From assembly GCF_002995495.1 (NCBI RefSeq), contig NZ_PVZV01000002.1:62001-126000 (forward strand): a DNA stretch of 64,000 bases, written 5' to 3'. A program made the translations under genes and the position numbers. Position 1 is the stretch's first letter, and the number at the start of each line of letters is the position of its first letter. The DNA is from Actinocorallia populi. Its GTDB lineage: Bacteria; Actinomycetota; Actinomycetes; Streptosporangiales; Streptosporangiaceae. The notes below the pieces were generated by a model, which ran no database searches, had not been told where the DNA came from, and saw only the letters and a list, made by a program, of their open reading frames with translations. Of this stretch, positions 49,042 to 53,153 are shown piece by piece.

Positions 49042-49671
49042 ATGAGCCCGATGAACCCCGCCGAGCCGGTCGACAGGGAGACGGCGCGCGAGCTGGCCGA
49101 GAAGGAGCTGGACAAGCCCGTCTACCACCGGGACCGGCCCTCCTTCGTCGACGAGGCGCTCGACCAGGTCGAGGAGTGGCTGAAGAAGATCATGCCGGAC
49201 GCCCCCGGTGCCGGGCCCGGCACCGGCGGCGGCTCGTTCACCCTGGTCGTGCTGCTCCTGCTGGCGGCCCTGCTGGTCGCCGCGGTGTGGTGGTGGATGC
49301 GCGGGCGCGGCAACGTCAGGTCCCGCAAGGCGCTGCTGGAGGACGTGCCCAGCCGGTCGCTGGACCACCGGGCCGCGGCCGAGGCGCACGCCGCGGAGGG
49401 CCGCTGGGCCGAGGCGATACGGGAGCGGCTGCGGGCGGTCGCCCGGGAGCTGGAGGAACGCGCGATCCTCGACCCCCGGCCCGGCCGCACCGCGCAGGAG
49501 CTGGCCGCCGAGGCCGCCGCGGTCCTGCCGGTGGACTTCGCGCCGGGCGTGGGAGTGTTCTACGACGTCTGGTTCGGCGACAGGCCGGGGACCCCGGAGG
49601 GCTACCGGCTGCTGGCCGACCTGGACCAGGCGGTGCAGGCCGCCAGGCCCCGGCCGTTGGAGGCGGTGTGA
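49042..49671 (+). CDS. DUF4129-domain membrane protein
   Basis: 209 aa; ATG 49042 with GAGGAG upstream. The N-terminal amphipathic region ends at WLKKIMPD. One membrane helix (FTLVVLLLLAALLVAAVWWW, ~69-90) precedes a cytoplasmic DUF4129 domain (AEAHAAEGRWAEAIRERLRA, RTAQELAAEAA, FYDVWFG). Such proteins accompany MoxR/DUF58 modules and transglutaminase-like proteins. The stop overlaps the DUF4350 GTG. Confidence 0.9.
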   Translation: MSPMNPAEPVDRETARELAEKELDKPVYHRDRPSFVDEALDQVEEWLKKIMPDAPGAGPGTGGGSFTLVVLLLLAALLVAAVWWWMRGRGNVRSRKALLEDVPSRSLDHRAAAEAHAAEGRWAEAIRERLRAVARELEERAILDPRPGRTAQELAAEAAAVLPVDFAPGVGVFYDVWFGDRPGTPEGYRLLADLDQAVQAARPRPLEAV

Positions 49672-50840
49672 CGCAGACGGCAGCACACGCGGAGAGCGCC
49701 GCGCAGGTCGCCGGCCGGCGGGTGCGGCGCTGGCGCGGCATCGTCCTCCCGGTCCTGGCCCTGGCCGTGATCGCGGTCCTGCTGGCCGCGCTCCGGCCCG
49801 AGGCGACCGGCGGCTACCTCGACCCCGAGTCCCCCGGCGGCAACGGCTCGCGCGCCCTGGCCGAGATCGTGCGCCAGAACGGCACGCCCGTGACCGTGGC
49901 CCGTACGGCCCGCGCGGCGGCGTCGGAGGCCACGCGGACCACGGTGGTGGTGGTCGTGCGGTCCGAGAGGCTCACCAGGGCCGAGCTGAGGCAGCTGGCG
50001 GCGGCACCCGGCACGCTGCTGCTGGTCGAGCCGACGGACGCGGCCCTGAAGCGGCTCGCGCCGGGCGTCTCCAGGGCCACGACGGCGGCCGCGGGCTTCG
50101 CCGTTCCCGGCTGCCCGCTGATGGAGGGCACCGGGACGGTGACCTTCGGGGACTCCCAGCTGTACACCGCGCCCTCCCATGCGCTCACCTGCTACCCGGA
50201 CCCGGAGGAGAACCTGGCCCGGATGGTCGTGCTGGGGGAGGGCGCGCCCAAACCCGTCACGGTGCTGGGGTCGGGGACGCCCCTCACCAACGACGAACTG
50301 GCCGAGGACGGCAACGCGGCGTTCGGGATGGACCTCCTCGGAGGGGCGCACGACAAGGCCGTGTGGCTGATGCCGGACCTGCCCACCGAGGCGGAGGCCG
50401 GGGACGAGAGCCTGGCGGAGCTGATCCCGCCGGGCGTCACCCTCTTCTTCTGGCAGGTGCTCATCGCGGTCGGCCTGCTGGCCCTGTGGCGGGTGCGCAG
50501 GCTGGGCCCCGTGGTGGTCGAGCGCCTGCCGGTGGCCGTCCGCTCCGCCGAGACCGTCGAGGGCAGGGCCCGCCTCTACCGCGCGGCACGGGCGCGCGAC
50601 CGGGCGGCGCTGGCCCTGCGCGAGTCGGCGCGCGAACGTTTCGTGCCGCTGCTCGGCCTCCCGCGCAGCGCCGCCGCCGACCCCGGCAAAGCCGAACAGG
50701 TCACCATCCTGGTGACATCACGTACAGGATGGGACCGGCAGACCGCCGGCTGGGCGCTGTACGGTCCCGCCCCCGGGGACGACGCGGAGCTCGTCCGCCT
50801 GACCGACCTGCTGGACGACCTGGAGAAACGACTTCTTTGA
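49668..50840 (+). CDS. DUF4350-domain membrane protein
   Basis: 390 aa from a GTG overlapping the DUF4129 stop. TM1 at ~25-43 (GIVLPVLALAVIAVLLAAL), then an extracytoplasmic DUF4350 domain (SRALAEIVRQNGTPVTVART, GTLLLVEPTDAAL), then TM2 (~258-275, FFWQVLIAVGLLALW) and a cytoplasmic tail ending EKRLL. The final stop codon lies within the right-end TTGA of the adjacent IS element. Reconstruction of the uninterrupted site gives the same C-terminus, so the protein is unaltered. Confidence 0.9.
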   Translation: MTQTAAHAESAAQVAGRRVRRWRGIVLPVLALAVIAVLLAALRPEATGGYLDPESPGGNGSRALAEIVRQNGTPVTVARTARAAASEATRTTVVVVVRSERLTRAELRQLAAAPGTLLLVEPTDAALKRLAPGVSRATTAAAGFAVPGCPLMEGTGTVTFGDSQLYTAPSHALTCYPDPEENLARMVVLGEGAPKPVTVLGSGTPLTNDELAEDGNAAFGMDLLGGAHDKAVWLMPDLPTEAEAGDESLAELIPPGVTLFFWQVLIAVGLLALWRVRRLGPVVVERLPVAVRSAETVEGRARLYRAARARDRAALALRESARERFVPLLGLPRSAAADPGKAEQVTILVTSRTGWDRQTAGWALYGPAPGDDAELVRLTDLLDDLEKRLL

Positions 50841-50960
50841 CCTCCTCCGCCGCCTTGAAGGGCGGGGATTCCAGCGGTCGCCCGCCGGGATTCCTGCTTC
50901 GTCGGGCCGTGCCCTCACCGCTTTCGCGGGTCAGGACCCACCGGCCCTCCACAGGCGTTT
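50837..50960 (-). ncRNA. Predicted omegaRNA 3' part / IS right end
   Basis: Immediately 3' of tnpB. Contains the GGAATCCCCGCCC / GGCGGCGG hairpin (CCGCC at 50850-50854 region pairing with GGCGG) typical of actinobacterial IS605 right ends. TnpB omegaRNAs span the end of tnpB and the right end and read into flanking DNA as guide. Here the guide would start AGAAGTCGTTTCTCCAGG (50836 leftwards). The exact 5' end cannot be seen. Confidence 0.55.
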
Positions 50961-52069
50961 CAGCTCTCCGCCAGCCCGGCGGCGAGAATGTTCTTCGCGG
51001 CGTTGACGTCTCGATCGTGGACGATCCCGCAGCTGCCGCAGACCCAGTCACGGACGTGCAGCGGCATCGCGGCGGCCCGGTGCCCGCATGTCGAGCACGG
51101 CTTGCTGGAGGGGAACCAGCGGTTCACCACGATCAGGGTGCGGCCGTACCAGTCGGCCTTGTACTCCAGCATCGACCGCAACTCCCGCCAGGCCGCGTCC
51201 GAGACGGCGCGGGCCAGAGTGCGGTTCTTGATCATGTTGCGGACGGCGAGGTCCTCGATCACGACCGTTTGGTTCTCACGGACGAGCCGAGTGGTGAGCT
51301 TGTGCAGGAAGTCCCGCCTGCGGTCGGTGACCCGCGCATGGACGCGGGCCAGGCGCAGACGGGCCTTCTCCCGGTTCCTACCGCCTTTGGCCTTGCGGGA
51401 ATGTTCCCGCTGGGCCCTGGTCAGACGGCGGCGATCGCGCCGCTCGTGCTTCGGGTCGGCGACCTTCTCTCCGGTCGAGAGTGTCACCAAAGCCGTCAGG
51501 CCCGCGTCGATGCCCACCGACGATTCGACGGGGTCCAGGTGGGGGATGCGGTCTTCGCACAGAAGGGATACGAACCAGCGCCCGGCCGCGTCTCGCGACA
51601 CCGTCACCGTCGTCGGCTCCGCCCCTTCTGGCAGGGGCCGGGACCACACGACGTTCAGCGGCTCCTTCATTTTCGCGAGGGTGAGTCGCCCGTCGCGGTA
51701 CTTGAAGGCGGAACGGGTGTACTCGGCCGAGGCACGGGACTTTTTCTTGGATTTGAACGCCGGATGCCTGGCGCGCTTGTTCCAGAAGTTCACGAACGCG
51801 CCTTGCAGGTGCCGCAAAGCCTGCTGGAGCGGCACGGAGGACACCTCGCCCAGGAAGGCGAGTTCCTCGGTGCGCTTCCACCGGGTCAGGAGCGCGGAGG
51901 ACTCCGCATAGGAGACACGGCGTCCCTCGCCGGCGTAGGCGCGGGTGCGTTCCGCCAGCATCCGGTTGTAGACCAGGCGGACGCAGCCGAACGTGCGCGA
52001 CAGTTCCGCCGCTTGCGCCTCCGTCGGATGGAAGCGGTACCGGAAAGCCCGTTTCACCTGCCGTCCCAT
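50960..52069 (-). CDS. tnpB: TnpB, IS605-family RNA-guided nuclease
   Basis: 369 aa from the ATG at 52069. N-terminal OrfB HTH (RAFRYRFHPTEAQAAELSRT, FGCVRLVYNRMLAERTRAY), RuvC-like triad Asp188 (GIDAGL), Glu272 (VIEDLAV), Asp354 (DRDVNAAKN), and a zinc ribbon CSTCGH...CGSCG between the last two. All catalytic residues are present and the length is full, so it is probably active. TnpB proteins cut DNA guided by omegaRNA and promote element retention. Without tnpA it depends on another transposase to move. Confidence 0.95.
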   Translation of the reverse strand: MGRQVKRAFRYRFHPTEAQAAELSRTFGCVRLVYNRMLAERTRAYAGEGRRVSYAESSALLTRWKRTEELAFLGEVSSVPLQQALRHLQGAFVNFWNKRARHPAFKSKKKSRASAEYTRSAFKYRDGRLTLAKMKEPLNVVWSRPLPEGAEPTTVTVSRDAAGRWFVSLLCEDRIPHLDPVESSVGIDAGLTALVTLSTGEKVADPKHERRDRRRLTRAQREHSRKAKGGRNREKARLRLARVHARVTDRRRDFLHKLTTRLVRENQTVVIEDLAVRNMIKNRTLARAVSDAAWRELRSMLEYKADWYGRTLIVVNRWFPSSKPCSTCGHRAAAMPLHVRDWVCGSCGIVHDRDVNAAKNILAAGLAES

Positions 52070-52117
52070 GCCCCGCACTTTACTAAGAGAACAGCTGAGA
52101 ACACTCACTGTGAAGGG

Positions 52118-52163
52118 AGGGAGCGGCGTGTCCTCCCCGTCTGAAGGCAGGAGACTCCACGCC
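52118..52163 (-). repeat. IS left-end imperfect hairpin supplying the moxR ribosome site
   Basis: CCTCCCCGTCTGAAGGCAGG and the following GAGACTCC can fold imperfectly and resemble the right-end sequence, consistent with paired TnpA-recognition ends. AGGAG (52149-52153) lies 10 nt before the moxR GTG and is inside the element. Confidence 0.5.

Positions 52164-53152
<989 letters not shown>

Positions 53153-53153
<1 letters not shown>

Follow-up and report, generated by a model that had tools for sequence, protein, structure and literature searches.

A tnpB-only insertion sequence on a stop/start overlap in Actinocorallia populi and the start-codon seating of its relatives

A tnpB-only insertion sequence occupies positions 50837-52172 of the window (the whole 64,000-nucleotide stretch of Actinocorallia populi DNA analysed here), and its target is the ATGA at which a DUF4350 gene and a moxR-family gene overlap. 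Seating at start codons is a trait of the group to which this element belongs, above the TAM-matched background. We explain it by insertion at TCAT with the neighbouring start and stop kept, survival of copies at gene starts, and a retention in which TnpB would take part, and we give this explanation as a whole a probability of roughly 0.87. We judge it about as likely as not that a fuller description of the group holds, as a translation-transparent actinomycete TnpB lineage: one with the complement of ATGA as its target, a spare in-frame stop in its right end and a correctly spaced spare Shine-Dalgarno (SD) sequence in its left end, which could enter an operon at such an overlap with both proteins unchanged and would be retained by TnpB.

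Results

The element and its neighbours

The locus comprises the following features, numbered on the window.

49668-50840, + strand: DUF4350 gene, 390 aa, whose last T and stop codon come from the element.
50821-50836, - strand: host flank expected to act as a 16-nt reRNA guide, by analogy with ISDra2 (PMC8612924).
50837-52172, - strand: whole element, 1336 bp, a tnpB-only IS200/IS605 (IS1341-type) element, delimited by ungapped fit to two same-genus empty sites.
50837 and 52172: right end (RE) border and left end (LE) border, which resemble the ends of 145 other copies.
50837-50959, - strand: RE, presumed omega/reRNA scaffold, ending ...GGAGGTCAA.
50960-52069, - strand: tnpB, 369 aa, with its ATG at 52069 and its stop at 50960-50962 (Pfam and open reading frame).
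52070-52172, - strand: LE with a subterminal hairpin.
52164-52172, + strand: GTGAACCCG, the LE tip, taken in an earlier reading for the beginning of moxR; missing from two same-genus empty sites and like the LE tips of L178 and L027.
52173-52176, + strand (TCAT on the - strand): ATGA target site, the conserved moxR start and, in the empty allele, the DUF4350 stop.
52173-53153, + strand: moxR-family AAA ATPase gene, whose ATG start is common to two same-genus orthologues.

The original prediction had placed an insertion sequence between DUF4350 and moxR, and the tnpB gene, its Pfam domains and the sequence bear this out. TnpB contains HTH_OrfB_IS605, OrfB_IS605 (E 1.4e-31) and Cas12f1-like_TNB (E 1.4e-25), domains that place it in the IS200/IS605 family, and its translation includes GIDAG, VIED and HDRD, which look like RuvC motifs. 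IS1341-type elements consist of one tnpB with an LE and an RE and no tnpA, and the tnpB-only subgroup is defined without a Y1 TnpA. The window element has this layout, with tnpB alone between LE and RE as the one conserved gene in 1336 bp and no room beside it for a tnpA (Y1/HUH). We also found no Y1 transposase in the window's genome; the same search was positive for this family in 5 of 14 genomes used as controls. Surveyed copies with both ends measure 1272-1415 bp, and relatives are annotated 'IS891/IS1136/IS1341 transposase'.

Hairpins are visible in both ends of the window element; the LE hairpin is no stronger than those of shuffled sequences (z -0.64), and the RE folds with z -2.3 when 7 nt of tnpB are included. 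Among the 16 inverted-repeat pairs listed, none was a terminal repeat of the element, and we found no sigma-70-type promoter or intrinsic terminator within 50700-52400. Rfam returned sub-threshold matches only, one of which, to HgcC, lies over the RE (window 50825-50949; 24.3 bits vs a gathering score of 50). A second copy of the element was not found in the window's genome. The only other TnpB there at E 1e-60 or better (L019; G000 contig C4, 428344-432444) is 48% identical, and its LE was not recognised.

Empty sites fix the border and the overlap

Two element-free loci of the same genus, L025 (G002) and L026 (G001), allowed us to reconstruct the junction. When 50836 is joined to 52173, the upstream side is identical to both G002 and G001 at 48/66 positions with no gap, and the downstream side at 40/60 (G002) and 36/60 (G001). 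Joining 50836 to 52164 instead leaves a 9-nt excess, and ungapped downstream identity drops to 23/60 (G002) and 17/60 (G001). The flank at 50821-50836 matches the empty site beside TCAT. The joined window encodes PGDDAELVRLTDLLDDLEKRLL followed by a stop and MSDETVIDTGV, and G002 encodes PGDDGELLRLTDLLDELERRVR followed by a stop and MSDETVLDKRV; the DUF4350 C terminus ...DLLDDLEKRLL-stop of the window thus aligns with ...DLLDELERRVR-stop, and the moxR start MSDETVID with MSDETVLD. Because the empty sites fit without a gap at 52173, and because GTGAACCCG continues the LE, the element ends at 52172. Comparable LE tips occur in L178 (TCAT followed by CGGACACTCACAGCGTGG) and L027 (TCAT followed by CGGACATCTACAGCGTGG). 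Relative to the same-genus empty sites, insertion took place beside a short motif, and the target was neither duplicated nor lost.

These comparisons revise the original prediction in several respects. Its central idea, that the element entered a 4-nt stop/start overlap seamlessly, holds in that both frames are intact, but the overlap is ATGA rather than GTGA. The right border, which had been put at 52163, is 9 nt off, since the empty sites demand 52172; the codon said to have been split, CTG, was CTA in the empty-site join; and the proposed original moxR start, GTG, gives way to the ATG at 52173, whose MSDETV is the start in both same-genus empty sites. Likewise, in place of the predicted junction CTTCT/GTGAACC the comparison shows ATGA at MSDETV, and a different junction in empty-site homologues was the very outcome named in advance as counting against the prediction. 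Two other claims stand. The element does supply the DUF4350 stop with Leu-Leu-stop kept: the frame ends CTT CTT TGA, in which the final T and the stop codon belong to the element; its four terminal RE bases read TTGA on the + strand (stop at 50838-50840), and CTA TGA has become CTT TGA, both last codons encoding Leu. The GTGA overlap described between DUF4129 and DUF4350 is also present, at 49668-49671.

A survey of related copies

We searched for TnpB relatives in 200 genomes of the family, at least 81 of which had a match at E 1e-110, and in a class sample of 296 genomes, 29 of which had a match at E 1e-130 (14 of the 29 belonged to the same family and were already included); named contigs added 9 loci. 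Flanks were retrieved and 181 loci examined, among the matches listed. An LE was recognised in 146 of the 181. In the other 35 none was recognised or accepted, and these include eight loci whose script-picked LE was removed by eye (L155, L158, L159, L160, L203, L021, L010 and L016). The LE was placed by eye at 18 loci, and L111 (TCAATC) was left out. Subtracting 3 duplicates at orthologous sites and 6 copies without a recognised RE left 137 distinct sites.

The motif at the 146 LEs was TCAT, or ATGA on the gene strand, in 142 cases (TCAC in 2, CCAT in 1 and TTAT in 1), a count that is partly circular, as TCA[TC] helped to pick the LEs. Because motifs helped pick the ends, the unbiased support for TCAT consists of the window's empty site and seven near-identical copies in G157, which resemble one another from TCAT inward and differ on its outer side. 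A TAM of TTCAC for the window element was rejected; the nearest-TCA[TC] pick had set a wrong border, and L018 was reset likewise. None of the six bases before TCAT is strongly conserved, with a mild excess of G at -2 (80/146) and -1 (71/146). An RE was found in 140 copies and ended in TCAA in 128 and CCAA in 12; the search pattern was G[TC]CAA, which would miss REs that end otherwise.

Most copies sit at gene starts

The original prediction implied a one-off event, whereas the 137-site survey shows the seating to be a group trait. Sites were classified on the joined empty allele by a codon model trained on the flanks. We found 67 sites at starts, 33 at starts within a stop/start overlap, 8 at stops only and 22 in non-coding DNA; the remainder lay in genes in another frame (5) or in frame within a gene (2). 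Gene starts therefore account for 100 of the 137 element sites; among ATGA sites taken from these flanks as controls the figure is 173 of 2064, made up of 147 starts and a further 26 at overlaps (Fisher odds 29.5, p 3e-67). The calls come from the codon model; Pfam served as a check for 20 of the 100, and gene annotation was compared only for 6 copies outside that set. Measured against non-coding sites only, the ratio is 100:22 vs 173:465 (odds 12.2). When one site was taken per genome, 77% of the sites in 69 genomes were starts, and beyond the window's family 13 of 15 sites with this LE were starts. A smaller survey of 88 sites, run with the wrong window border, gave 55 starts vs 150 of 1282 control ATGA sites (55:28 vs 150:307 against non-coding sites only), and 59/88 vs 104/1213 under a stricter model.

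Two lines of evidence bear on whether the called starts are real. Sequence before the ATG in the empty alleles pairs as a host SD would, with a median of -8.2 kcal/mol, compared with -7.5 at control starts and -5.0 kcal/mol at control non-coding sites; this retained host SD gives independent support for true starts. Pfam families were found in 18 of 20 randomly drawn downstream genes, and in ten the domain begins within 20 residues of the ATG.

Plasmid copies provided annotated borders. Eight were fetched, and six, all from Streptomyces, had this LE; L240 has a different LE. An annotated gene start falls exactly on the LE border in 5 of the 6, with ATGA there in four and TTGA, hence the motif TCAA, in L235. 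At the border of the sixth copy, L238, no gene is annotated in a gene table that is incomplete. The annotated stop of another gene falls on the RE's TCA in 4 of the 6. In three Streptomyces plasmids (L233, L235 and L236) an element of this kind lies at the same junction of glucose-1-phosphate thymidylyltransferase and dTDP-glucose 4,6-dehydratase genes. In the remaining copy, on an E. coli plasmid (L239), a TnpB 54% identical also lies between two genes of the opposite strand, and a GGAGG core precedes the ATGA of a start there. At L156-L162 and L172-L177 (13 of the 15 loci listed), TnpB copies about 60% identical have a different LE, which on the tnpB strand reads [AG]TGACC and then ...G(C)GCGCAGGC.... 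Here too the presumed TAM includes a start/stop overlap, RTGA, this time in the orientation of tnpB.

Element ends restore split stops

Wherever insertion split an upstream TGA, the RE supplied an in-frame TGA (41/41 sites). This count follows largely from the fact that REs end in TCAA, and the frame is correct because TCAT and TCAA set TGA equally far from the host codon. The last residue was unchanged at 36 of the 41 split stops vs 39 of 42 synonymous at control overlaps, so a milder change of the last residue than at control overlaps was not supported. Copies at overlaps or stops were found among TCAA-ended elements (41/125) and not among the CCAA-ended ones, which provide no stop (0/12; p 0.018). 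The absence of CCAA-ended copies from these sites could reflect selection, or decay of ends that do not have to provide a stop.

The left tip carries a Shine-Dalgarno-like core

The gene-side tip of the LE contains an AGGA, GGAG or GAGG core in 119 of 143 copies, and in 116 of 143 this core ends 4-7 nt before the ATG. The tips pair with the anti-SD sequence at a median of -9.6 kcal/mol vs -4.5 for shuffled tips. Values at or below -6 are reached by 86% of start copies and 86% of non-start copies alike, and the core therefore belongs to the element and not to the host.

We considered the alternative that this core is a coincidence of LE structure, with the seating produced by the TCAT target plus purging and no adaptation to translation, and we rate it as a serious but somewhat improbable contender. 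In its favour, the CTCC of the LE tip could pair with the GGAG at the foot of the hairpin, a pairing read from the bases that may serve transposition; recent copies land anywhere; and the window's own tip, at -4.0 kcal/mol, has no canonical SD, and neither do the seven copies found in G174's genus, every one of them called a start. Against it, the SD core is kept across tips that otherwise differ (GGAGGTATCTG, AAGGAGATTCG, AAGGAAACAGG, AAGGAGGTTGGG and GGAGGAGCCGG), and in 116 of 143 copies it has the 4-7 nt spacing noted above. Lower use of host SDs as the cause of the SD-less tips in G174's genus was not supported: values at or below -6 are reached by 56% of 66 start-like sites in that host and by 53% of 1228 in the others.

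Age and mobility of the copies

Starts made up 4/13 of the copies at least 97% identical to their nearest copy, 35/43 of those at 90-97%, 49/67 of those at 80-90% and 12/14 of those below 80%. The youngest class is dominated by the G157 family, with 0/7 called starts (one of these, L086, is probably a missed start); since the class without G157 gives 4/6, the age trend depends mainly on one genome. That near-identical copies are less biased towards starts fits TAM-limited insertion plus survival better than strict targeting.

The same evidence bears on a second alternative, in which insertion itself prefers start codons, for example because translated or replicating single-stranded DNA offers some cue in addition to the 4-nt TAM. 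The excess over non-coding ATGA sites is what such a preference would produce, as is the share of overlaps among starts (33/100 vs 26/173 in the controls, p 0.0007). The flank beyond TCAT has no strongly conserved base, however, and 6 or 7 of the seven near-identical G157 copies lie away from starts, so we consider this preference unlikely.

Mobilisation in trans is possible. Y1 transposases were found in 7 of 8 relatives searched and not in G002; the many-copy genomes G157, G156 and G138 have 5-20 Y1 matches each. Ends common to tnpA loci and these copies were sought and rejected, as L226 and L232 lack the G157 tip and L228 has the same RE style only; at the other tnpA loci examined, no clear ends were found.

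Discussion

We propose the following course of events. A Y1 transposase acting in trans would insert the element at any TCAT. At the locus studied here the element entered 3' of TCAT on the - strand, the complement of the ATGA shared by the DUF4350 stop and the moxR start; the ATGA is kept on the LE side for the downstream gene, and TTGA on the RE side gives the upstream gene the same in-frame TGA. Copies within genes would be lost, and copies at starts and at stop/start overlaps, being nearly harmless, would persist. By analogy with known TnpB proteins, TnpB may cut the empty allele, after which the element would be copied back. An RE cleavage site similar to the target motif would account for the TCA common to TCAT and TCAA, and with it for the restoration of split stops. 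For most members of the group, the tip of the LE would re-supply a ribosome-binding site, with the gene's own site pushed to the far side of the element.

Precedents exist for these steps. In both IS608 and ISDra2 the form that inserts is a circle of single-stranded DNA, and it enters 3' of a short motif that in ISDra2 doubles as the TnpB TAM (PMC8612924). IS608 recognises its site through a guide sequence at the foot of a hairpin (PMC7290912), and cutting of the empty allele by TnpB has been demonstrated with plasmids (PMC11870625).

Because the window's branch has no canonical SD, translation of moxR probably relies on a weak site or begins at the in-frame GTG at 52164, which is new to moxR. 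The original version, a GTGA overlap with an element of 50837-52163 and moxR read from that GTG, is very improbable: the GTG is in frame with an AGGAG 10 nt upstream, and GTGA overlaps at moxR are frequent in more distant relatives, at their own start codons, but nine bases are surplus to two same-genus empty sites with the MSDETV start and related LE tips of similar length precede TCAT, so that this version could stand only if GTGAACCCG had been gained in the window's lineage ahead of the insertion.

If correct, our reading of TCAT insertion followed by survival at starts would explain how TnpB elements without a transposase of their own persist in gene-dense genomes, and would give their target motifs a biological reason, the mimicry of start/stop overlaps. 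It would also point to natural start-codon-directed nucleases, and would warn gene callers that a mobile element may be the source of a stop or a ribosome-binding site. The evolution of element ends that keep neighbours expressed would become testable by reporters.

The element resembles ISDra2 and IS608 (PMC8612924) in insertion 3' of a motif that is kept without duplication and in the TnpB family of its protein, and what look like subterminal hairpins at both its ends recall the subterminal palindromes of those systems. It differs from them in its target, TCAT, the complement of a start codon, in place of TTGAT or TTAC, and further in that it has no tnpA, that its RE restores a stop through TCAA, and that many copies have an outward SD-like core in the LE. 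In the literature searched, which covers a minority of subscription-journal papers, no description was found of TnpB elements at start codons or with a ribosome-binding site. With IS1341-type elements it shares the tnpB-only layout, and it departs from them in its recurrent start-codon seating, undescribed in that literature. Homing elements, such as group I introns and homing endonucleases, sit in conserved sites. Like them, the elements described here occupy the least harmful site and may, by analogy, be kept there by a site-specific nuclease; unlike them, they lie between genes, do without splicing, and have their junction repaired by the base identity of the element's own ends.
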